DNA of 25,237 bases from a virus. The DNA lies in the IMG/VR virus record IMGVR_UViG_3300021961_000583, positions 1 through 25,237 of that record. One strand, 5' to 3'. The notes beneath the pieces were generated by a model. The model was not told where the DNA came from. It did not search any database and saw only the letters and a list, made by a program, of their open reading frames with translations. This document shows positions 1,632 to 25,237 of the stretch, piece after piece; position 1 is the stretch's first letter; each line of letters opens with the position of its first letter. A program made the position numbers and the translations under genes.

Positions 1632-4600
1632 ATGGCACAAATTATTAAACACAGACGCGGTTCGTTAGAATCCATTAGTTCTGCTACCAAACGTGCTGGT
1701 GAATTGTTAGTTGTTACGGGTTCTGCAGGAATCACTGCCGCAAATGGAGATTCAATTCTATTCGTTGGTATCGATGGTTCTACCGCAACACCTGCTAACA
1801 AAGTATTACAAGGTTCATCAGTACCTGATTTAACTGGAGCATCATACGATACTTCAGTTGATGGTATCCCGTTCTACGATTCTTCAGCCGAAAAATTATA
1901 TATCTTAAATAAAGGTGGTAATGTTGAAGTTAAAGCAACAGCAAACACCGGAGGAACTGGAATTGTTTCTGGTTCTGCCCAAGTAAAAGAATTATTACCT
2001 TCAGGAACTGTTTCAGGTTCTTCTCAGGTTGTTAGTATCTTGGGTGAGTTAAACGCATTCTCTTCTTCTCAGGAAGGTAAAGATTCTACTTTAGCATCTT
2101 ACACTGCTTCAGTTGATTCTGATTTAACTGAATTATTTGCTTCTGCTTCTGACCACGAAACTCGTGTAGATGCTTTGGAAGCTTTCTCATCTTCATTAGA
2201 TGGTGGATTTGTTAATAATGCTGAATTAGCAGCAGCAACTGGTGCTTTAGAAACCACTATTGATAACTTAACTACTACTGATATTGCTGAAGGTTCTAAC
2301 CTTTACTATACTGATGCTAGAGTAAAAACTAAATTAAATGCAGAAACTGTAATTTCAGGTTCTTCTCAAGTTGATTTGGCAGAAGTTCAAGGTGATACTG
2401 ATGATGTTGCAGAAGGTTCAAGTAACTTATATTACACAGACGCAAGAGTAAAAACTAAATTAAATGCAGAAACTGTAATTTCAGGTTCATCTCAAGTACA
2501 AATCGGTTCAGTAACTGGTTTCTCTTCTTACTCATCTTCAGTTGCTGCAAATGATGTTGAATTATTCGCTACTGCTTCTGACCATGAAACAAGAATCGAT
2601 GCTGTTGAAGAAGCAATTGGTGCTGGTTCAAACATTGATGGTAGATTAACTGCTTTAGAAACATTCTCAGGTTCTGCAGAAGATGATTTAACTGAATTAT
2701 TTGCTACTGCTTCTGACCATGAAACGAGAGTTGATGATTTAGAAACTTTCCAATCAGATATTGAAACTGCAATTTCAGTTTCAGGACAGAATGTAGTTAT
2801 TAATGGTAACTTAGAAGTTGCCGGAACTCAAACCATCGTAGATTCTACAACTGTACAAATTGGTGATAACATCATCGAGTTGAATGGTTCAGGAGCTGCA
2901 AACGCTGGTTTATTAGTAAAAGATGCAACTGCACCAAATACCGTTTCAGGTTCTTTACTTTGGGATTCAACTAATGATTACTGGAAAGCTGGTGCTGAAG
3001 GTGCTGAATCTAAATTATTAGTAGCTGGTGGTGATGGAGTAGTTTCTGGCTCTTCTCAAATCTCTGCTGACCAAACCGAAGGTTGGGCTGCTGATGTTAA
3101 AGTACAATTAGATGCTAACAATGTTGTATCTGGTTCTTCTCAAATCTCTGCTGACCAAACTGAAGGATGGGCTGCAGACGTTAAAACGCAATTAAATTCA
3201 AATACAGTAATTTCAGGTTCTTCACAAGTTAATGCAGATTCAATCACTAACTTCGATGCAAATGTACTTGACAAAATGAATGCTGAAGGAGTAATCTCAG
3301 GTTCTTCTCAAGTAACTATTGGTGATACTACTGGATACAGTGATTTCTCATCTTCAATTGCAACAGCAATTTCTGCTTCAGTAGCTGGTGCACAATGGGA
3401 TAACTTAAATGGAAAACCTGCTGGAATCGTTTCAGGTTCTTCTCAAGTTGTTGATTACTTAGATTCTGAAGATGTTAACTTAGGTGGTATTTCTGGTTCT
3501 TCTTTAGATATTACTGGAAACGCTAAGATTGATGGTAACATCGTAATCGGTGGTAACATCACTATTGGAGATGCATCTTCTGATACAATCTCTTTCGGTG
3601 GTGAAATTGCTTCTGATATCTTACCTTCTCCATCTAACACTTACGATTTAGGTTCTGCAACTAACAAGTTTGCTGAAGTTCATGCTACTGATTTCTTCGG
3701 TACAATCAATGGTGTTGTAAACGCAACAAATGGTGTAGTTTCAGGTTCTTCTCAGATTGTTTCAATCTTAGGTCCATTAAACTCATTCACTTCTTCTATC
3801 AACACTACAATCAAAGATAAGTTAGATGCTGAAACTGTTGTTTCAGGAGCTGCACAAATCGTTGATTTATTATCTAACCAAGCAGTAGATTTCGGAACTG
3901 GTAGAGTATCTGCAGATGATTTCGGAATGGAGAATGGTTCTTCAACTTTCACAGGTTCATTCGTTGGTGATGGTTCAGGTTTAACTGGATTAGCAACTAA
4001 CTTATCAATCGTAGATGGAAAATCAAACTCTACTGATATTGATTTATTAAATGAATCATTAGAATTTTTATCAGGTTCTGCAACCGGTATTGAAGTAACC
4101 GTTTCAAACAACACCGTTACTGTTTCAGGTGTTAACGCTTCTACATCTACTAAAGGTGTGGCTTCATTCGATGCAGATGACTTCGCAGTATCTTCAGGAA
4201 ATGTTGCAATCAAATCAGGTGGTGTTAGAGCTGATAACTTAAACTCTGATGTTGCTGGAACTGGTATCTCTTTAAATGGAGTTGATAACTCTATCGAAGT
4301 TGATTATGGTTCTACTGCAGGAACTGCTGTTGAAGGTGATACTGCATTAACTGTTCAGGGAACTGCAAACGAAATCGAAATCTCAGGTGGTTCAATCACT
4401 TTAGGTGCTGGTGGTACTGTTACTATCGGATTACCTGATGATGTAACTATCGGAAACGATTTGGATGTAACTAATGATGCACAAGTTGGTGGAGATTTAA
4501 CTGTTGTTGGTAACTTGTTCGTACAAGGTACAACTACAACCGTAGATTCAACTACTATCCAATTAGGTGATAACATTATTGAATTGAATGGTTCAGGAGC

Positions 4601-9356: not shown

Positions 9357-11444
9357 ATGGCAATTACATTACCAAGTGGTTTTAACATAACAAACAATGA
9401 ACCGGTAGATGCTAGATTTAGTTTAGCTGACCAAACGGCCCGTTATGGCCTATCTTCTGCAAACATATACGAGGGTTTAGTTGTTTATCAACGAGATAAT
9501 AATACATTATGGATATTAGTTGATACAAATGAGGTTTCTAACACAAATGGATGGCAACAAGTAACATCATCGGAGTTATCCGATACAATTACCGATAGAT
9601 TAGATAGTTTAGAATTAACTTCTGCGTCTCATGATGATAGATTAGACCAATTAGAAACAGATTCAGGTTCACAAAGTGGTAGATTAGATAATTTAGAATT
9701 AACTTCTGCATCTCATGATAGTAGATTGGGTAGTTTAGAATTAACTTCTGCATCTCACGATAGTAGATTAGATAATTTAGAATTAACTTCTGCATCTCAT
9801 GATGACAGATTAGATAATATTGAAAGTTTCACATCATCCATAGATACTACAATCAAAACTAAATTAAATGTTGAAGGTGTAATATCGGGTTCAGTTCAAA
9901 TATTAGGTGGAAGTGGTATTTTATCTTCATCAAACGAAAACTTTACTGATTTCTCACAATCAGTTGATAATAGATTAGATTCTGCAGAAAGTGCACTTGC
10001 AAGTGGAAATGATAGATTAACATCATTAGAAGGATTTACTTCTTCAATTGATACTACAATCAAAACTAAATTAAATGTTGAAGGTGTAATTAGTGGTTCA
10101 GACCAATTAACATCTTCATATGATTCTCATTATGTAACATTAGATGGTGACCAAACAATTGGTGGAATAAAAGAATTCAACGATATTGTTGTAAATGGAA
10201 CTGGTTCATTTGCTTATATTGAATCAATTGGTGGTTCTGCTAAAATTATTGGTGACGCGTTTGTTGTAGTAAACACAGCAACACCAACATCAAGATACGC
10301 GGGTTTATCAGTTTATGATTCGGGTTCTACTCTTTCAACTGCATCATTCTACTTTGATGGCCAAAATAACGATTGGGGATATGAATATTCCTCATCTACT
10401 GGTGTTGATTATGCAGTAACCATATTTGGACCTGAATACACAACAAAAGGTAACCCAACTTATTTAACAACGAATACAATACCAAAAGCAGTTGATAATC
10501 ATCATTTAAATGATTCAAATATTTCTGATGATGGTACAACTATCACTCTTGGTTCAAATGTACAATTAAATGGTAATTTAAACCTTACTGGTGGTATAAG
10601 TGGATTAAATATAGTATCGGGTTCATCTCAGATATTAGGTGGAACTGGTATAGTTAGTAGTTCTGCTCAAATAAAACCATTATTACCATCAGGAACTGTA
10701 TCGGGTTCGATACAAGTATCATATCCGAGTTTATCTAATATTCCGGCTGGTATTGTATCGGGTTCATCACAAATAACTCCTTTACTACCAACTGGTGTAG
10801 TATCAGGTTCATCTCAGGTATTCTCAAATGTAAGTGGTGATGTTACTATTAACTCATCAGGTGTATCTGCAATATCAAGTGGAGTAATTGTAAATGCCGA
10901 TGTTAATGCAACCGCGGCTATTGCTTACACTAAATTAAATTTACAAGGTAGTGGAATTATATCAGGTTCTGGTCAAATTACAAAAACTTTACAAGAAGTA
11001 ACAACTGCAGGTAATACAACAAATACTTCAATATCAATTACAAACTTAACTGCATCAACTTCTAAAACAACCGGTGCCTTGATTGTAAGTGGTGGTATTG
11101 GAACAAGTGGTGATGTGTTTGCAGGTGGTGATGTTGTTGCGTATGCATCCTCAGATAAAAGATTAAAAGATAATATTTTACCGATTGAAAATCCTTTACA
11201 AAAAATTAATCAAATTGGTGGTTATAGTTTTGAATGGAATGTGGAAAAACAGAATATTTATAAAGGTAAAGATTACGGAGTTATTGCCCAAGAAATCGAA
11301 GAAATCTTACCTGAATTGGTAGATACGAGAGAAAGTGGATATAAGGCCGTAAAATACGATAAATTGGTTTCCCTATTAATTGAAGGAATCAAAGATTTAT
11401 CACAACAAGTTGAAGAATTAAAACAAAAAATTAACAAGGGATAA
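9357..11444 (+). CDS. Tail fibre protein with C-terminal Peptidase_S74 intramolecular chaperone domain (695 aa)
   Basis: The ATG at 9357 follows AGAGGA (9345-9350). The N-terminus (residues 1-70, MAITLPSGFNITNNEPVDAR...YEGLVVYQRDNNTLWIL) is a different attachment-type domain from its neighbours. Residues 81-150 are five tandem 14-residue coiled-coil units. The middle part has a beta-structured segment (LDGDQTIGGIKEFNDIVVNGTG) and about eight VSGSSQ-like motifs. The C-terminal ~100 residues are a Peptidase_S74 domain: Ser599-Asp-Lys-Arg-Leu-Lys604 fits the Ser/Lys dyad (spacing 5) at which this family cleaves itself before Ser, followed by YGVIAQEIEEILPELV and a terminal coiled coil. In known S74 proteins the domain folds the trimer and is then released. 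The next gene begins 7 bases after the stop. Confidence 0.9.
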   Translation: MAITLPSGFNITNNEPVDARFSLADQTARYGLSSANIYEGLVVYQRDNNTLWILVDTNEVSNTNGWQQVTSSELSDTITDRLDSLELTSASHDDRLDQLETDSGSQSGRLDNLELTSASHDSRLGSLELTSASHDSRLDNLELTSASHDDRLDNIESFTSSIDTTIKTKLNVEGVISGSVQILGGSGILSSSNENFTDFSQSVDNRLDSAESALASGNDRLTSLEGFTSSIDTTIKTKLNVEGVISGSDQLTSSYDSHYVTLDGDQTIGGIKEFNDIVVNGTGSFAYIESIGGSAKIIGDAFVVVNTATPTSRYAGLSVYDSGSTLSTASFYFDGQNNDWGYEYSSSTGVDYAVTIFGPEYTTKGNPTYLTTNTIPKAVDNHHLNDSNISDDGTTITLGSNVQLNGNLNLTGGISGLNIVSGSSQILGGTGIVSSSAQIKPLLPSGTVSGSIQVSYPSLSNIPAGIVSGSSQITPLLPTGVVSGSSQVFSNVSGDVTINSSGVSAISSGVIVNADVNATAAIAYTKLNLQGSGIISGSGQITKTLQEVTTAGNTTNTSISITNLTASTSKTTGALIVSGGIGTSGDVFAGGDVVAYASSDKRLKDNILPIENPLQKINQIGGYSFEWNVEKQNIYKGKDYGVIAQEIEEILPELVDTRESGYKAVKYDKLVSLLIEGIKDLSQQVEELKQKINKG
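9597..9806 (+). repeat. Five tandem 42-bp coding repeats
   Basis: Five in-frame 42-base units start at 9597, 9639, 9681, 9723 and 9765 and encode RLDxLELTSASHDx (the second unit diverges: RLDQLETDSGSQSG). A partial sixth follows at 9807. Near-identity at DNA level suggests recent expansion or slippage. Rod length may vary between relatives. Confidence 0.9.
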
Positions 11445-12146: not shown

Positions 12147-15100
12147 ATGATTTTACACAGTCCAATATTTTCAGGTTCAATTAATCAAGCAGAATCTGCA
12201 TATGCAAATTTAAGTGGTTCGTTTACGGGCTCGTTCAAAGGAGTTGGTGATTTTGAAGGTTTAGTAGCAGACTCAATTGACTATGATAACATTTTCAATG
12301 TACCTACTTTAGTTTCAGGTTCATCACAAATATCTTATCCTGAGATATCTAATATCCCAAGTGGTATTATTTCATCATCAGCACAAATAGATACTTTATT
12401 TGATATCGATGGTCTTGTATCAGGTGGTGCACAAGTTGAATTCAATACTATAAACAATAACCCGTTCTCACAAAGTGCAAGTTCGGTAACTGTTTCTAAG
12501 AATATTGTACCAACAACTAATAGTATAACTCTTGGTACTGCACAGAATCCATTCCAAGATTTGTATTTATCCTCTGCATCTCTTTACATTGATGGACAAC
12601 AAGTAATATCATCTAACGCAACTGAATTAATCATTACAACCGATGAAAACCAATCATTAAAATTGATTGAAACCGGTGCTGATACAATTACATTACAAAC
12701 TGCAAATGGTGATATTACCCTTACTACAACCGGAACTGGTAATATTGAATTAGATGCTCCAATACAAATTGCAGCAGGTAATCAAATTATCTCATCCGAT
12801 GGAAATGCAATCCAAATCGGTGAAGATATATCAGTAAGTGGAAATATTGCTGTAACTGGAACCGTAGATGGTGTTGATGTAGCTGCATTAAAGGCTTCCT
12901 TTGATACATTAAATGGTAAATCAGTAATTTCTGGTTCATCACAAGTAACTATTTCTGATACTACGGGATATTCGGATTTTAGTTCTTCATTAAGTGGAAG
13001 AATTTCTACTGAAAAAGGAAGAATAGATGCTATTTTACTCTCTGCAGATGCTGATAAAGATTCATTTGCTGAAATTGTATCATTGATTAACTCTGTTGAT
13101 ACAACTAATGATAATGCATTCGCATCATTCTATACATCCTCAAATAATACAAATACAGCTCAAGATGCAAGATTATCTTCATTAGAAACCGCATCAGGTT
13201 CTGCTATTACACGATTAGATGCATTAGAAGGAACTGATATAACAGTTAGTTTAAGTGGTGATGTTAGTGGTAGTGGTACAATTACTAACTTAGGAGATGT
13301 AACAATCTCAACAACAGTACAACCAAACTCAGTTGCTTTAGGAACTGACACAACTGGTAACTATATGAGTAACGTATCTGCTGGAAACGCAGGTATTTCT
13401 ATATCACATACACAAGGTGAAGGTTCAACTGCAACAATTTCACTTGTTAGTGGTGTTGTTTCAGGTTCATCTCAAGTTAATGCTGATTCAATCACAAACT
13501 TTGATGCAAATGTACTTGCATACAACAACTCTTTAGGTGTAATCTCTGGTTCATCTCAAGTAAATGCCGATTCAATCACTAATTTTGATACAAATGTATT
13601 GGCTTACAACAACTCTTTAGGTGTAATTTCAGGTTCTTCTCAAGTTCTTGGAAATACAGGTATTGTTTCTTCATCTGCACAAATTGATTCATTAGGATTC
13701 TTGAAAGTAGATGGAGATGCTGTAATCTCAGGTTCATCACAAGTTTCTATGGGTGGTGATTTAAGTGGAACTGCTGACAATGCTCAAATAGTAGCTGGAG
13801 CAATTACCAATACTGAAGTTAATGCATCTGCAGCAATTGCATACACTAAATTAAATTTACAAGGTAGTGGTATTGTATCGGGTTCTTCTCAAGTATTCTC
13901 AGATGTGAGTGGAGATGTTGTAATTGCATCAAATGGTGTTGCTACAATCCAAGCTAATTCAGTTGCTTTAGGAACTGATACAACTGGTAACTATGTTGCT
14001 GGTGTAACTGCTGGAAATAGTATCGTAGTATCAGGAACTGCAGGTGAAGGTTGGTCTCCAACAATTACTGTTGGTAATGGAGTTGTTTCAGGTTCATCTC
14101 AAATAGACGCATTAGGATTCTTAAAAGTTGATGGAGATAGTGTAATTTCAGGTTCATCACAAGTATCTCTTTCGGGTGATATAACAGGAACTGCTAACAA
14201 CACTGCAATCGCATCAGGAGTTATTGTAAATGATGATGTTAATGCATCTGCAGCAATCGCTTACACTAAATTAAATTTACAAGGTAGTGGTATTTTATCA
14301 GGTTCAGTACAAGTACAAGCTGGTTCAATTACAGGTGATATTGCATTAGGAACACAAACAAGTGGTAACTATGTTGCAACTCTTGGAACTGGAACAGGTG
14401 TAACTATTGGTTCAAACACAGGAGAAGGTTCAACTCCAACTATCGCAGTTAATTATGGTTCAACTTCAAATACAGCAGTACAAGGTAATACTACTATTGC
14501 ATTTGGTGGTACTGCAAACGAAATTACAATCGATGCTGGTTCTTCAATCACTCTTGGTAGTGGTGGAACGGTAACTATTGGACTTGCAGATTCAATTGGT
14601 GGAAATAGAACTTTCTCAGGAAACGTAACTGTAACAGGTAACTTAACCGTAAATGGTACTACAACAAGTGTAAATTCAAACACAGTAAATATTGGTGACA
14701 ACATTATTGTTCTTAACTCTGATGAGGCTGGTGCTCCATCACAAGATGGTGGTATTAACATCGAAAGAGGTACATCAACTAATGCTGGATTGATTTGGAG
14801 TGAAGCTAACGATTACTGGATGGCAGGACTTGTAGGTTCTGAAGAAAGAATCGTAGTTGGTGCTGGTAATACTTCTATTACTACTTTAGGTACAATCGCA
14901 ACAGGTACTTGGCAAGGTACAGCTATTGCTGATGGATATATTTCATCTGCAGCTGCTTGGAATGCTAAATTAGATTCTGCTGGTACAATCGCTACTAATG
15001 ATTACGCTAAATATGATGCTAGTGGAGATTTAGTTGGTAGAAGTTATACTGAAGTAAAAACTGACCTTTCACTTAATAATGTTGAAAACACTGCATTATC

Positions 15101-15665
15101 AACTTGGGCTGGTTCGGGTAACATTACAACTTTAGGAACAATCGCATCAGGTACTTGGAATGGTTCAGTTATCGCATCTGCTTACTTAGATGCTGATACT
15201 GCTCACCTATCAACTACTCAAACATTTAGTGGAACTAAAACATTCTCTGCTATAACAACTATATCAAATACAACTGCTTCTACAACTAAAACTACTGGAG
15301 CTCTTATAGTTACTGGTGGAGTTGGTGTAAGTGGAGCCCTAAATGTTGGTGGTGACGTTGTTGCTTACGCTTCTTCTGATAAGAGATTAAAAGATAATAT
15401 CAAAAATATCGAAAACCCAATTGAAAAAGTTCAGAAATTGAATGGTGTAACTTGGGATTGGAACTCTAACGCTGATGAATTACAACAATCTTTACCAAAT
15501 GTAGGGGTTATTGCTCAAGAAGTTGAAGAGGTGTTCCCACAATTGGTTCACAATAGAGATAATGGATATAAAGGTGTTGATTACGCTAAATTAACAGGAT
15601 TGTTAATCGAAGCAATCAAAGACCAACAAAAACAAATTGACGAGTTAAAATCCAAATTAGGATAA
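12147..15665 (+). CDS. Large tail fibre protein with C-terminal Peptidase_S74 domain (1172 aa)
   Basis: The start at ATG 12147 is supported by ACGAGGA. It lacks the LRRGT N-terminal domain and starts directly with repeat-type sequence (SGSINQAESAYANLSGSFTG). It has about thirteen (V/I)SGSSQ-like motifs and two 28-residue tandem repeats (13458-13625). SAAIAYTKLNLQGSGI occurs twice here and, with one change, once in the gene at 9357. The module GTANEITIDAGSSITLGSGGTVTIG to GDNIIVLNSDEAG (about 14505-14730) is paralogous to 4365-4590 in the 1118-residue fibre. The C-terminal domain contains Ser1077-Asp-Lys-Arg-Leu-Lys1082, the S74 Ser/Lys dyad, then VGVIAQEVEEVFPQLV and a coiled-coil tail ending DELKSKLG. 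Trimerisation with self-cleavage is expected from the family. A strong terminator follows. Confidence 0.9.
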   Translation: MILHSPIFSGSINQAESAYANLSGSFTGSFKGVGDFEGLVADSIDYDNIFNVPTLVSGSSQISYPEISNIPSGIISSSAQIDTLFDIDGLVSGGAQVEFNTINNNPFSQSASSVTVSKNIVPTTNSITLGTAQNPFQDLYLSSASLYIDGQQVISSNATELIITTDENQSLKLIETGADTITLQTANGDITLTTTGTGNIELDAPIQIAAGNQIISSDGNAIQIGEDISVSGNIAVTGTVDGVDVAALKASFDTLNGKSVISGSSQVTISDTTGYSDFSSSLSGRISTEKGRIDAILLSADADKDSFAEIVSLINSVDTTNDNAFASFYTSSNNTNTAQDARLSSLETASGSAITRLDALEGTDITVSLSGDVSGSGTITNLGDVTISTTVQPNSVALGTDTTGNYMSNVSAGNAGISISHTQGEGSTATISLVSGVVSGSSQVNADSITNFDANVLAYNNSLGVISGSSQVNADSITNFDTNVLAYNNSLGVISGSSQVLGNTGIVSSSAQIDSLGFLKVDGDAVISGSSQVSMGGDLSGTADNAQIVAGAITNTEVNASAAIAYTKLNLQGSGIVSGSSQVFSDVSGDVVIASNGVATIQANSVALGTDTTGNYVAGVTAGNSIVVSGTAGEGWSPTITVGNGVVSGSSQIDALGFLKVDGDSVISGSSQVSLSGDITGTANNTAIASGVIVNDDVNASAAIAYTKLNLQGSGILSGSVQVQAGSITGDIALGTQTSGNYVATLGTGTGVTIGSNTGEGSTPTIAVNYGSTSNTAVQGNTTIAFGGTANEITIDAGSSITLGSGGTVTIGLADSIGGNRTFSGNVTVTGNLTVNGTTTSVNSNTVNIGDNIIVLNSDEAGAPSQDGGINIERGTSTNAGLIWSEANDYWMAGLVGSEERIVVGAGNTSITTLGTIATGTWQGTAIADGYISSAAAWNAKLDSAGTIATNDYAKYDASGDLVGRSYTEVKTDLSLNNVENTALSTWAGSGNITTLGTIASGTWNGSVIASAYLDADTAHLSTTQTFSGTKTFSAITTISNTTASTTKTTGALIVTGGVGVSGALNVGGDVVAYASSDKRLKDNIKNIENPIEKVQKLNGVTWDWNSNADELQQSLPNVGVIAQEVEEVFPQLVHNRDNGYKGVDYAKLTGLLIEAIKDQQKQIDELKSKLG
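13458..13625 (+). repeat. Two tandem 84-bp coding repeats
   Basis: Units 13458-13541 and 13542-13625 encode 28 residues each: (V/I)SGSSQVNADSITNFD followed by (A/T)NVLAYNNSLGV. A third unit begins (ISGSSQV) but diverges at once. The first half also occurs in the 1118-residue fibre at about 3208-3260. Confidence 0.85.
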
Positions 15666-17632: not shown

Positions 17633-18880
17633 ATGGCATACTCATTAAACAATTTGGCCGGAGCAACCGGATTTACTCAAGCCTCTAATGTATCTTTAGG
17701 AACTATAAAAGGGTCTCCTGCAGCAAATGATACTATAAGTATTGGTTCATTTGCTTTGACAAGTGTAACTGCTCCAACTGGATATACTTACGCAGTAGAG
17801 GGAACTTCCGAAACTTATACAGCAGGTACTGCGGGTGGTAGTAGAATATCTTATATTGAAAACTATGCTCCAAATTGGACATGGACAGTTCCGGTTGGTT
17901 CTAAAATTACTTTAGGTACGAACTCTGGTAAAAGTGCTACTTTTTCAGTTTCTTCAATGACCAACCTTCCTACACAAACTGCTTTACAATCAATTATTTC
18001 TCATACAATTCGAATGGTATTTGATGATGGATTTAGTGAAAATTGTACCAATAAAGGGTCAAATTTAGATAAAACAGTTTATTCAGTAGATTCATATGAT
18101 GGTAACTCATCAGCACTATGTTTAACGATTGACTCACCGGTTACTTTAGCAGATGGTACAATCGTAGAGGCAGGTGATTTAAATGAAGGAGATACTCTTA
18201 AAGGGTTCTCTATCGGTGGATTAGGAACTGATTCAGATGGAACTTTCTTAGATTGGTCATCTAATTCACTTTCTACTACTCCAAAAGATGTAACAATTGT
18301 TAATTTAACTTATTCTTTTGCTGCTCGTTATTATGATGTAAATAATGGTGAGGTAACTGCTACTTCTGAACACCCTATGTTGGTGAAAGATTCGGTAAGT
18401 GGTGATTACAAATTTAAAGAAATGTTCAACTTAGTAGTTGGGGATAAATTGGTCAAAGGCGATGGTAGTGAAGTTGATATTACTTCAATTGATATTGTAC
18501 AAAAAACAACCGAGATTGTTTCAATAGATGTTGAAGAAGAAGATACTTACATGGTTAATGGATATATTACACACAACAAAGGTGGTAACTCACATTCTAA
18601 TTTCTCAGGACCAAGTGCACCTACATCAGTTGCATACTCATCTCCATTAATTACATGGACTGCACCATCGGCTCAAACTACAACAGGTATAACTGCTTAC
18701 GAATATCAAATTTCAGCTGCATCTAACTTTAGTTCAATTGAAAATACTGCAGATGAATGGAGTACAACTGAAGTTGAGGTAAATACAATTTTAGCTGCAG
18801 GAACTTGGTACTTTAGAGTAAGAGCAATTGAGGCTGGATTAAAAGGAACTTGGTCTTCTACTCTAACATTTACAAGATAA
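17633..18880 (+). CDS. Tail-associated protein with intein-like Hint domain and Fn3-like C-terminus (415 aa)
   Basis: Three parts are visible. Residues 1-162 are a beta-rich phage-type N-terminal region. Residues 163-315 form a Hint (intein/BIL-type) domain: Cys163 starts CLTIDSPVTLADGTIVEAGD with LNEGDTL (block A), T244-S-E-H247 is the TxxH block B motif, and IVSIDVEEEDTYMVNGYITHN ends in His314-Asn315 (blocks F and G). At about 153 residues it is mini-intein size with no room for a homing endonuclease. The next residue is Lys316, not Cys, Ser or Thr, so standard splicing is not expected; self-cleavage or noncanonical splicing is possible. Residues from about 330 (APTSVAYSSPLITWTAPSA...YEYQISAASNF...WYFRVRAIE) look like a fibronectin type III domain. 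A TAGGAAAA ribosome binding site is weak. Cell-surface binding plus processing of a virion protein is inferred. Confidence 0.82.
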   Translation: MAYSLNNLAGATGFTQASNVSLGTIKGSPAANDTISIGSFALTSVTAPTGYTYAVEGTSETYTAGTAGGSRISYIENYAPNWTWTVPVGSKITLGTNSGKSATFSVSSMTNLPTQTALQSIISHTIRMVFDDGFSENCTNKGSNLDKTVYSVDSYDGNSSALCLTIDSPVTLADGTIVEAGDLNEGDTLKGFSIGGLGTDSDGTFLDWSSNSLSTTPKDVTIVNLTYSFAARYYDVNNGEVTATSEHPMLVKDSVSGDYKFKEMFNLVVGDKLVKGDGSEVDITSIDIVQKTTEIVSIDVEEEDTYMVNGYITHNKGGNSHSNFSGPSAPTSVAYSSPLITWTAPSAQTTTGITAYEYQISAASNFSSIENTADEWSTTEVEVNTILAAGTWYFRVRAIEAGLKGTWSSTLTFTR

Positions 18881-22292: not shown

Positions 22293-23045
22293 ATGGCAAA
22301 TTATGATTTCCCAACTGAAGTGATATCACTTCCATCAAAAGGTTTAGTATATCCTGAATCAAATCCACTATCATCTGGTCAATTAGAAATTAAATATATG
22401 ACTGCAAAAGAAGAAGAAATTCTTGCATCTCAAAATTTAATTAAAAAGGGTGTAGTATTAGATAAGTTATTTGAATCAATTATTGTTGATAATAAAATCA
22501 ATATAGATGATATTATTATTGGTGATAAAAATGCTATTATGTTAGCAACTCGTATTTTAGGTTATGGACCTGAATATAAGATTGAAATTACTAATGATTT
22601 AGATGAAAAAGAAGAACTTTCTGTTGATTTATCAAAAATTCAAACAAAAGAAATTGATGAATCATTATTAAATCGTGAAAATCGCTATACATTTACTACT
22701 TCAAATGGTACTGTATTAGAATACAAATTATTATCACATGGTGATGAGAAAAAAATTGATGCAGATATAAAAGCGTTACAAAGATTAAATAAAGGAACTT
22801 CTGCTGAATTAACAACACGATATAGATATATGATTCTTTCGGTAAATGGTAAAACTGATACTGGTTCTATAACTGGTTTTATCAATAATCAGTTTTTAAC
22901 TCGTGATACTCGTGCTTTCAGAGAAGCTGTAAAAAAATTACAACCTGATGTTGTTATGGAGTTTGAATACGAAGACCCAAGAACGGGAGAAATGGAGGTA
23001 CGCCCAATTCCTATGGGCGTAGGGTTTTTTTGGCCTACCGAGTAA
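22293..23045 (+). CDS. T4 gp26-like baseplate/tail assembly chaperone protein (250 aa)
   Basis: The sequence fits the T4 gp26 (T4_baseplate) family: VISLPSKGLVYPES near the N-terminus, IKYMTAKEEEILASQNLIKKG, then IDDIIIGDKNAIMLATRILGYGPEY, and a C-terminal ...FFWP end. T4 gp26 is 208 residues. The ribosome binding site is weak (AAAGG at 22282-22286). The gene ends GGG-TTT-TTT-TGG-CCT-ACC-GAG-TAA, and a +1-frame open frame without a start codon continues to 23256. A shift at the T7 run would give a 320-residue fusion in which the last residues of this protein are replaced. Its position between the tube and tape measure genes is that of the frameshifted tail assembly chaperones (lambda G/GT type) of other tailed phages, so a chaperone role is likely, but this is inference. 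Confidence 0.85.
   Translation: MANYDFPTEVISLPSKGLVYPESNPLSSGQLEIKYMTAKEEEILASQNLIKKGVVLDKLFESIIVDNKINIDDIIIGDKNAIMLATRILGYGPEYKIEITNDLDEKEELSVDLSKIQTKEIDESLLNRENRYTFTTSNGTVLEYKLLSHGDEKKIDADIKALQRLNKGTSAELTTRYRYMILSVNGKTDTGSITGFINNQFLTRDTRAFREAVKKLQPDVVMEFEYEDPRTGEMEVRPIPMGVGFFWPTE
22999..23031 (+). promoter_or_regulatory. Recoding signal: stem-loop followed by T7 slippery run
   Basis: TACGCCCA (22999-23006) pairs perfectly with TGGGCGTA (23014-23021) around loop ATTCCTA. GGG (23022-23024) and seven T (23025-23031) follow. It lies at the only place where the reading frames of the gp26-like gene and its +1 extension overlap (23023-23045). TTT in the P site can re-pair exactly after a +1 step. 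The layout also equals an intrinsic terminator, so RNA polymerase slippage giving mRNAs with six U (or nine) would produce the same fusion. Confidence 0.65.
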
Positions 23046-23256
23046 TTATACAATTCAACTTCATCAACAAATTTTTGAATTATGTTATTATGGCAATGGA
23101 TTCAATCAAGAAGGAGTTTATAGATTACCAATACACATACGAAACTTCTATTATAAACAATTAATAGACGCTAAGAAAAAAGAACAAGAGCAAACGAAAA
23201 AGGCCCAAAATACACCAAAAGTAAATAAAGGACCAAGTATAAGAGTGAGGAAGTAA
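23023..23256 (+). CDS. +1-frame extension of the gp26-like gene (77 codons, no own start)
   Basis: This frame is opened by TAG at 23020-23022 and ends at TAA 23254-23256. It contains no ATG, GTG or TTG codon, so independent translation is unlikely. It encodes LHQQIFELCYYGNGFNQEGV, then YRLPIHIRNFYYKQLIDAKK and a charged tail (KEQEQTKKAQNTPKVNKGPS...RVRK). The dense pattern of aromatic and hydrophobic residues argues for a real folded domain; it resembles, as far as I recall, the small second domain found after gp26-like proteins in related phages. Expected product: residues 1-246 of the gp26-like protein joined to 74 residues starting Gly-Leu-Pro. A terminator overlaps its stop codon, so the unit ends here. 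If the T7 length is a sequencing error, the gene is simply one continuous frame. Confidence 0.75.
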   Translation, partial: GFFGLPSNYTIQLHQQIFELCYYGNGFNQEGVYRLPIHIRNFYYKQLIDAKKKEQEQTKKAQNTPKVNKGPSIRVRK

Positions 23257-23289: not shown

Positions 23290-23313
23290 GTAGTATAATT
23301 GGAGATAATAAAA

Positions 23314-23580
23314 ATGAAACTTAATAAACAAGAAGCAAAGTTATTTAAGGAATCTCATTCTAAGTGGTTAGGTGAAAACTATTTTTTAGGAAAATTATTT
23401 CTTAGAAAAGTAGTTAATGCCATAAAAAATGATTCTGAAATTAAAAATGCCATAGCTAAAGCAGATAAAGAATTAGAAGCAACCAGAGATAAAATAGAAA
23501 AATTATCAAAAGGTGATAAGGAAAAAGTAAAACAAGCAATCCCTGCAGATGTTAGAAAATATTTAGGGTTTGATTACTAA
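23314..23580 (+). CDS. Small helical protein of unknown function (88 aa)
   Basis: The start is taken as ATG 23314, because the in-frame TTG at 23299 overlaps the likely ribosome binding site GGAG (23301-23304). The protein is Lys/Glu-rich (MKLNKQEAKLFKESHSKWLG, LFLRKVVNAIKNDSEIKNAI, KADKELEATRDKIEKLSKGD) and probably all helical; it ends IPADVRKYLGFDY. There is no membrane segment, signal or metal-binding motif. It lies in the gap between the chaperone-like gene and the tape measure gene, 16 bases before the latter and apparently in the same transcript, which suggests a tail assembly factor. I do not recognise the family. Confidence 0.65.
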   Translation: MKLNKQEAKLFKESHSKWLGENYFLGKLFLRKVVNAIKNDSEIKNAIAKADKELEATRDKIEKLSKGDKEKVKQAIPADVRKYLGFDY

Positions 23581-23596
23581 ACTTATATAATTTAAT

Positions 23597-25237
23597 ATGG
23601 CTAAATCACAATCACAAGAACAAAAAGAATATAATTCTTTACTATCACTTACTCAATCAATGTTGGGTAAGATTGGTGATTCCATGTCTGAAATAGCCAA
23701 TAATTCTGATAAAAGAAATAAAAAATTACAAGAACAAGTATCATTATCAAAACAAATTGTTGATTCAATACAAACTGAAAAAGATTTAGAAGATGCTCTC
23801 TTAAAATTAGAGCAACAACGAAAACAAATAAATTCACAAAATTTTGGAGTAAACGAGGCATCAAAAAATACTCTTTTACAACAAAATCAAGCAATGCAAG
23901 GTGTATTGCAAAAACAAAAAACTCAAGCACAAATTTTAGCAAGAGTAGATGATATTGTTGGTGAAACAACTGATAAGTTTAAGGGTTATTTGGATGATAT
24001 AGATTCTGGATTACAAAAAATTCCAATAATAGGAAAAGCTCTTTCAAATACATTTCAACCATTTAAAGAAAAAACCGAAGAAATAATTGATAAAGTAGGT
24101 AACGAGTTCAGTTCAAAATTTCAAGAGTCATTTTTAGAATCTCAAGCAGCAGGTGATAATTTGGCCACATCAGTTACAAAGGGTATCGGTGGAGGACTTA
24201 GAGGTGCATATCGCGAATTACAAGCATTAACAGGGCCATGGGCTCCTATAATTGTGGGAGCATTGGCCGTGGCCGGTGCTTTATATCTTGCTCTAAAACG
24301 ATTTACAGAAATTGATAAAGCTGCTCAAAAATTTAGAGAAAGTACCGGATTATTAAATTCACAAACTGCCCAAGTTAGGGATAATATAAAATTTGTTTCA
24401 CGAGATTTTGCAGCTCTTGGAGTTTCTGCAGATGATGTTGCAACTGCTGCAGCCGATTTTACAAATGAATTTAGTGGATTAGAACAACCATCTCGTGAAG
24501 TATTGGGTTCTATGGTTTCTTTAAATAAAAACTTTGGAATTGGAACTAAAGAGGCATCTCAATTAAATAAAGTATTTCAAAATATAGGTGGATTATCTGC
24601 CGAACAATCACAATACTTAGTTGGTCAAACTGCCGAAATGGCTAAGATGGCTGGAGTTGCCCCTGATAAGGTTATTAAGGATATGGCCGATAATTCGGAG
24701 TATGCATATCGTTACTTCCAAGGTTCACCTAAAGAACTTGCAAAGGCAGCAGTTGAAGCAGCAAAATTAGGAACATCTATAAAAGAAGCTGGAAAAGTTG
24801 CAGATAATTTATTAGATTTTGAAAGTTCTATCACAAAAGAACTTGAAGCATCTGCAATTCTTGGTACAAATATAAATCTTGGACAATCAAGATATCTTGC
24901 CTCAACTGGTGATATACTTGGTGCACAACAAGCAGTAGTTGATGAAGTATCCAAATTAGGTGATATTACAAAACTTAATAAATGGCAACAAGATGCTTTA
25001 GTTGAAGCAACTGGGATGGAATTTGAATCTTTAGTTAATCAACAAAGAATCAGGGAACGATTCGGAAAATTAAACAAAGAACAATTGGCATCTGCTATGG
25101 CATTGGTTGACGCAGGAAAAGATATATCACAAGTATCGATGGATGATTTAAATGCCCAAACTGGTAGATTGGCAGCTCAAAGAGAAATGCAATCGGTTTT
25201 GGATAATATGAGTAATAATTTTTCATCTTTATCAACT
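23597..25237 (+). CDS. Tape measure protein, N-terminal part (3' end outside window)
   Basis: The frame is open from ATG 23597 to the window end (547 codons, no stop). It would set tail length and be threaded through the tube. Residues 1-125 are Gln/Lys/Glu-rich coiled coil (MAKSQSQEQKEYNSLLSLTQ, LEQQRKQINSQNFGVNEASK). Residues 214-233 (PWAPIIVGALAVAGALYLAL) form a hydrophobic membrane-type segment, as in many tape measure proteins. From about 245 the sequence follows the phage minor-tail/TP901-type pattern (KFRESTGLLNSQTAQVRDNI, SRDFAALGVSADDVATAAAD, NKNFGIGTKEASQLNKVFQN). There is no clear ribosome binding site; co-transcription with the 88-residue gene is likely. Position after the tube and chaperone-like genes supports the call. 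Confidence 0.88.
   Translation, partial: MAKSQSQEQKEYNSLLSLTQSMLGKIGDSMSEIANNSDKRNKKLQEQVSLSKQIVDSIQTEKDLEDALLKLEQQRKQINSQNFGVNEASKNTLLQQNQAMQGVLQKQKTQAQILARVDDIVGETTDKFKGYLDDIDSGLQKIPIIGKALSNTFQPFKEKTEEIIDKVGNEFSSKFQESFLESQAAGDNLATSVTKGIGGGLRGAYRELQALTGPWAPIIVGALAVAGALYLALKRFTEIDKAAQKFRESTGLLNSQTAQVRDNIKFVSRDFAALGVSADDVATAAADFTNEFSGLEQPSREVLGSMVSLNKNFGIGTKEASQLNKVFQNIGGLSAEQSQYLVGQTAEMAKMAGVAPDKVIKDMADNSEYAYRYFQGSPKELAKAAVEAAKLGTSIKEAGKVADNLLDFESSITKELEASAILGTNINLGQSRYLASTGDILGAQQAVVDEVSKLGDITKLNKWQQDALVEATGMEFESLVNQQRIRERFGKLNKEQLASAMALVDAGKDISQVSMDDLNAQTGRLAAQREMQSVLDNMSNNFSSLST

Follow-up and report, generated by a model that had tools for sequence, protein, structure and literature searches.

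Programmed frameshifts in tail chaperone genes are generally known in the -1, -2 and +1 directions (PMC5009743). The G/GT gene of phage lambda and the corresponding gene of phage Mu are known cases: a programmed shift, located before the tape measure gene, yields a short and a long chaperone form. Lambda shifts by -1 and Mu by -2, and in both direction and slippery sequence they differ from the locus described here (PMC5009743). T4 gp26/gp51 (PHROG 150) is its homologue in both the N and the C domain, shares the position among the tail genes and likewise exists in a short and a long form. In T4, however, the long form is encoded by a separate gene, 51, and gene 26 ends TTC TTT GAG without a slippery tract. 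T4 gp51 covers both parts of phrog_150 in one frame; gp26 covers the first part only. In cyanophages, pelagiphages and other T4-like phages the two parts are arranged in -1.

In the present case there is one gene, and its second part lies in +1. The gene is found in a viral sequence of 25,237 nucleotides (IMG/VR record IMGVR_UViG_3300021961_000583), the whole of which is called the window below. It very probably encodes the tail assembly chaperone of a T4-like phage with a contractile tail, a minority of ribosomes slipping +1 on UUU and joining the zero-frame domain (TAC-N) to the +1 domain (TAC-C) in a fusion protein, TAC-NC.

Organization of the locus and its predicted products

The gp26-like ORF closes with a stop codon at 23043-23045. 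The +1 frame is open from the upstream stop TAG (23020-23022) and ends in a stop at 23254-23256; it contains no ATG, GTG or TTG. The two frames overlap at 23023-23045 only, across GGG TTT TTT TGG CCT ACC GAG TAA, where the T7 run is read in zero frame as GGG TTT TTT TGG. Both frames, their +1 offset, the extent of the overlap and the lack of a start codon had been described in a sequence-only reading of this DNA, and inspection bears out each of them. The same reading had placed the gene between the tail tube and tape measure genes. The upstream neighbours are indeed a tail sheath gene and a tail tube gene (gp19 match in Pfam and PHROG), and a tape-measure-like ORF starts downstream at 23597, with similarity (E 2e-13) to the protein annotated as tape measure in Flavobacterium phage immuto. 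A small ORF (23299-23580, 93 aa) with no credible family match sits between the chaperone and tape measure genes.

Table 1. Features of the probable frameshifted chaperone locus in the window.
Feature	Position	Strand	Evidence
TAC-N, zero-frame ORF, short form, 250 aa	22293..23045	+	phrog_150, gp26 profile, AF2 fold matches
TAC-C, +1-frame ORF without start codon, 77 codons and stop, C-terminal extension of the long form	23023..23256	+	constraint, gp51 C-terminal profile, three-helix AF2 model
Slippery site TTT TTT T, in which two UUU_U sites overlap	23025..23031	+	T7 in 196/261 loci; UUU_Y in 253/253
GGG codon directly before the run, third base never T in T7 members	23022..23024	+	0/124 clusters
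Predicted hairpin UACGCCCA-AUUCCUA-UGGGCGUA, candidate +1 stimulator	22999..23021	+	folding energy; synonymous shuffles

Elsewhere in the window, two long repetitive fibre-like proteins (9357-11444 and 12147-15665) each carry a terminal Peptidase_S74 intramolecular chaperone domain. A virion-type protein at 17633-18880 has an intein-like Hint domain (PT-HINT E 1.8e-5, below the Pfam cut-off), which ends ...HNKGG and is followed by a weak fn3 match. The Lys after HN suggests that this domain might mediate cleavage rather than splicing.

Both halves of the gene match the gp26/gp51 family, in agreement with the earlier assignment to a frameshifted chaperone of gp26 type. TAC-N matches phrog_150 (baseplate hub) with E 9.1e-8, as do 58 of 59 relatives, and a profile of gp26 and its -1 relatives with E 9e-16. 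The two domains were modelled separately in AF2. The TAC-N model (pLDDT 92.8) finds its best fold matches in T4-like baseplate hub assembly proteins, and the TAC-C model consists of three helices (pLDDT 84). The homology of TAC-C is to the gp51 C-terminal region together with the -1-frame domains of T4-like phages (hhalign probability 96, E 1e-9). Profiles on both sides were required, hhalign against single T4 proteins giving no signal, and TAC-C has no direct PHROG match. Pfam gave no credible match for either frame; PDB sequence and fold searches returned nothing significant, the HK97 tail chaperone 2ob9 appearing at E 2.1 only. Each part was found once per long record searched, including those of immuto and Mel-JY01; no second copy of TAC-N or TAC-C, and hence no two-gene arrangement as in T4, was present in these records.

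The proposed sequence of events is as follows. (i) Most ribosomes would make TAC-N and terminate at its stop codon. (ii) A minority would slip one base forward, the tRNA-Phe on UUU (23025-23027 or 23028-23030) re-pairing with the overlapping UUU downstream. (iii) After the slip, GGC CUA CCG... would be read on to 23253. (iv) The product, TAC-NC, would have 320 aa and the predicted junction ...GVGFFGLPSN.... (v) By analogy with lambda gpG/gpGT (PMC5009743), TAC-N would coat the tape measure protein and TAC-C recruit tail tube subunits. The chaperone function itself is putative and follows from homology.

Conservation of the offset and of the shift site

A gp26-like protein search of viral contigs yielded more than 600 relatives, of which the best 80 were read. 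The set was enlarged with queries taken from relatives in Flavobacterium phage immuto, Microcystis phage Mel-JY01, LR756508 and Streptococcus phage GXN1, which brought it to 261 loci whose zero-frame stop is complete. Of these, 253 have a +1 ORF of 55 aa or more, as against 19 for the other frame. Within 150 nt after the zero-frame stop of these 253 loci, the +1 frame contains no stop codon and the other two frames contain 625 and 1474. Substitutions favour the third positions of +1-frame codons (2966, 1853 and 7384 at positions 1, 2 and 3), the signature of coding constraint. Twelve extra loci from GTDB assemblies, many of them in Flavobacteriales or Saprospiraceae bins, have the same site and bring the total with the +1 offset to about 265. 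The check proposed in the sequence-only reading, to align homologous loci and see whether the frames stay offset and the T7 is conserved, thus has a divided outcome: the offset holds in the 253 and the twelve loci, whereas T7 stands in frame in 196 of the 261 and gives way elsewhere mostly to broken runs, in which UUU_Y is the constant. The eight loci outside the 253 are L177, L182 and L187, discussed below, and five that run into the locus end; T7 and the start of the +1 domain are kept in all five. One gp26-like gene with GAG TTT TTT TGG and a +1 domain (CP070664.1, 2763994-2769764) comes from a metagenome-assembled genome, a 2.8 Mb record under the title candidate division WOR-3 chromosome, and may represent a prophage, an integrated tail cluster or an assembly mix.

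The shift site varies within narrow limits. UUU followed by U or C stands in frame in all 253 +1 loci, so that in every member the P-site codon could re-pair after a forward move of one base. In the 196 T7 loci the run is followed by GGCC, ACCC or TCCC and the A-site codon is UGG, UAC or UUC; GGG stands beside the run in the window and in 57 of these loci. The variants besides T7 are TTTCTTT, TTTCTAT, TTCTTTT, CTTTTTT, TTCTTTC and CTGTTTC. They include broken runs with TTT CTT or TTT CTA before TGG (the isolate immuto among them), TTC TTT TGG and CTT TTT TGG. Among named phages the second frame lies in +1 after TTT TTT CAC in Bacillus phage SP-15, TTT TTT AGT in Listeria phage LIS04, TCC TTT TTT TGG in Rhodothermus phage RM378 and CTG TTT CGC in Streptomyces phage BRock. 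Streptococcus phage GXN1 has TTC TTT CGT; in influenza PA-X, UUU_CGU has been demonstrated to serve as the +1 site (PMC3498833). As judged from these alignments, the conserved element is UUU_Y, not a pure T run. The pure T run emphasized in the earlier reading is thus correct for the window and for most loci, but several classes reach the same frame through runs broken by C. The members with CTA point to the first codon as the probable place of slippage and those with TTC TTT to the second; T7 would be compatible with either.

There are three natural exceptions. In L177 and L182, sister rows close to immuto, TTC TTG and TTC CTT replace UUU_Y, and the C domain comes with an ATG of its own, placed immediately behind the TAC-N stop (from 3218 in L177 and 3215 in L182). 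This is a derived escape from frameshifting. Homologues with a normal start codon for the second frame had been named as grounds for rejecting a frameshift; these two carry such a start, and both have lost UUU_Y. L182 keeps CTT_T and yet has lost TTT_C, which suggests that slippage in the TTT CTT class would occur on TTT. The more distant L187 has GAT TTT TTC (around 3130-3230) and its second domain in -1.

The base before the tract and the predicted upstream hairpin

The same two parts occur in -1 in P-SSM2, S-PM2, HTVC008M, Cr30, phiM12, phiW-14, C48C1, Melnitz, XacN1 and Vibrio 1.081.O. All sites examined in these -1 relatives are NNT TTT TTY, permitting tandem slippage on T_TTT_TTY. The window and its +1 relatives are not of this type: their C domain lies in +1, and T precedes T7 in none of 124 clusters at 90% identity and none of 50 at 70%, with about half expected from their own codon use. 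The product of probabilities for this absence is about 1e-22, the clusters not being fully independent. Codon choice before T7 is correspondingly skewed: GGG makes up 33 of 37 Gly codons, AGC 20 of 31 Ser codons and AAC 25 of 25 Asn codons, as against 7%, 3% and 28%, respectively, in these genes as a whole. Three TTC second codons, from T8-T9 members or of the L182 type in shifted register, were left out of these counts. Since no T stands before T7, the -1 option is removed, and we read the missing T as probable selection against -1 slippage. Members with an interrupted run may have T before it (GGT TTC TTT, L171-L175). A before T7 is also rarer than expected, at 11 observed and 36 expected in 122 clusters; avoidance of -1 slippage accounts for the lack of T only, not for that of A.

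Directly upstream of the site, the window has a predicted 8 bp hairpin (-12.6 kcal/mol, z -2.8) that ends 3 nt before the first slip codon. In 59 clusters, the stretch immediately before the site folds more strongly than its synonymous-codon shuffles (mean z -1.50, se 0.18), and the signal fades to between -0.5 and 0.1 further upstream. Column-preserving codon shuffles give z -3 to -6 at the site, with a control region reaching -2.9, and the best free base pair of the hairpin covaries weakly. A hairpin abutting the shift site is probably favoured by selection, with moderate support, and is a candidate +1 stimulator. With 70S ribosomes in vitro, a hairpin that re-folds beside the E site stimulates +1 shifting and attenuates shifting by -1 (PMC6321510). 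In a search for a downstream RNA stimulator no structure stood out, and Rfam gave matches only far below gathering scores.

In a tree of the N domain the +1 rows stand apart from the main -1 group. The long-branched -1 rows L187 and XacN1 fall near the +1 side, L187 close to the root of the +1 group, and the tree is compatible with a single +1 clade (AU p 0.53). For close relatives, the named hosts and the genome bins belong mostly to Bacteroidota, a group that rarely uses Shine-Dalgarno (SD) sequences. We tentatively propose, at somewhat short of even odds, that a homologous Phe-Phe U tract serves -1 shifting in one T4-like branch and +1 shifting in another, the base that precedes the tract deciding the direction, with help from a hairpin that re-forms against the ribosomal E site and replaces the SD.

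Alternative readings

The sequence-only reading had regarded a sequencing or assembly error in the homopolymer, concealing one continuous frame, as the main alternative. T runs are error-prone on some platforms, but the identical offset recurs in the 253 loci, in many assemblies and named phage genomes, and some members without a long T run share it. The GTDB loci and the coding constraint add to this; hundreds of independent sequences rule out a sequencing error, and its residual likelihood is negligible. RNA polymerase slippage on T7, which homopolymer runs can provoke, would change the number of U residues and allow the fusion to be translated without ribosomal slippage. It is extremely unlikely: the offset is unchanged in members with runs of only 3-5 T (TTTCTTT, TTCTTTT, TTCTTTC), and the avoidance of T in the codon before T7 fits codon-anticodon rules for -1 slippage. 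That the second frame is a separate gene, expressed through reinitiation or by initiation at an internal or non-canonical codon, is very unlikely. The ATG of L177 and L182 is a point in its favour, as is the fact that about half of the loci contain some ATG, GTG or TTG among the opening 22 codons of the +1 ORF. Only 3 of 106 clusters, however, have an early +1-frame start codon with an SD in front of it, and the window's frame has no ATG, GTG or TTG at all; homology also reaches up to the slip site, and UUU_Y is present in all 253 +1 loci and absent from the two relatives with ATG.

A programmed -2 shift at the same site, giving ...GVGFFFGLPSN..., leads to the same frame and has a precedent in the Mu tail chaperone (PMC5009743, PMC3498833). 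T7 permits re-pairing two bases back, and the window's run taken alone fits both +1 and -2, so that the distinction rests on relatives. In members with TTC TTT T or TTC TTT CGT, a tRNA-Phe moving two bases back meets a middle-base mismatch (UCU), and in the member with CTG TTT CGC the match is similarly poor (UGU), whereas UUU to UUU or UUC at +1 pairs fully in all of them. A -2 shift is accordingly very improbable, and of the '+1 or -2' left standing earlier, we infer +1. The preferred reading is a +1 slip of tRNA-Phe on UUU_Y.

Comparison with known systems

Bacterial prfB (RF2) resembles this site in its P-site forward slip with an element next to the E site. The AGGG-3 nt-UUU-UGG spacing of the GGG subclass is one that we take to resemble the prfB geometry. 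Here, unlike in prfB, the A-site codon is a sense codon (UGG, UAC, UUC), not a stop, and a hairpin rather than an SD seems favoured. Influenza A PA-X, with UCC_UUU_CGU, shares the +1 slip of a P-site tRNA-Phe on UUU_Y (PMC3498833), as seen in the UUU_CGU of GXN1, but belongs to a eukaryotic virus and a different gene without homology. E-site-juxtaposed hairpins likewise abut the shift site, but were designed reporters (PMC6321510), whereas the predicted hairpin here is a candidate natural case.

For Flavobacterium phages, a full-text literature search turned up no tail chaperone with a frameshift. Vladimirov, Gautam and Davidson (2022; Virology 566:9-15) reportedly identified T4-like tail assembly chaperones, and poly-T -1 sites are said to be mentioned in passages that cite that study. 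With that study outside the comparison, the large +1 branch, the UUU_Y rule, the lack of T before the run and the probable hairpin appear to be new. They would provide a large collection of natural UUU_Y +1 sites from a bacterial setting, together with candidate natural counterparts of the E-site-juxtaposed hairpins known from reporter constructs. For annotation, the rule would be to expect that public records omit the latter half of this tail gene or give it a wrong start. In Flavobacterium phage immuto, immuto35A_232 (L082, 4836-4946), annotated as a hypothetical protein, is a 36-codon end fragment of the +1 chaperone domain.

The -1 gp26 genes (Kyanoviridae, HTVC008M, Cr30, phiM12, phiW-14, C48C1, Vibrio 1.081.O and XacN1, whose second domain was assigned by frame only) have the same two domains, and their shift likewise takes place towards the end of TAC-N, on a U tract encoding Phe-Phe. 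Theirs is T_TTT_TTY in -1; here it is UUU_Y in +1, with no T before T7. If this is true, a conserved gene can reverse its direction of frameshifting while using the same slippery tract, and hundreds of natural variants would separate the rules of +1 from those of -1 shifting.
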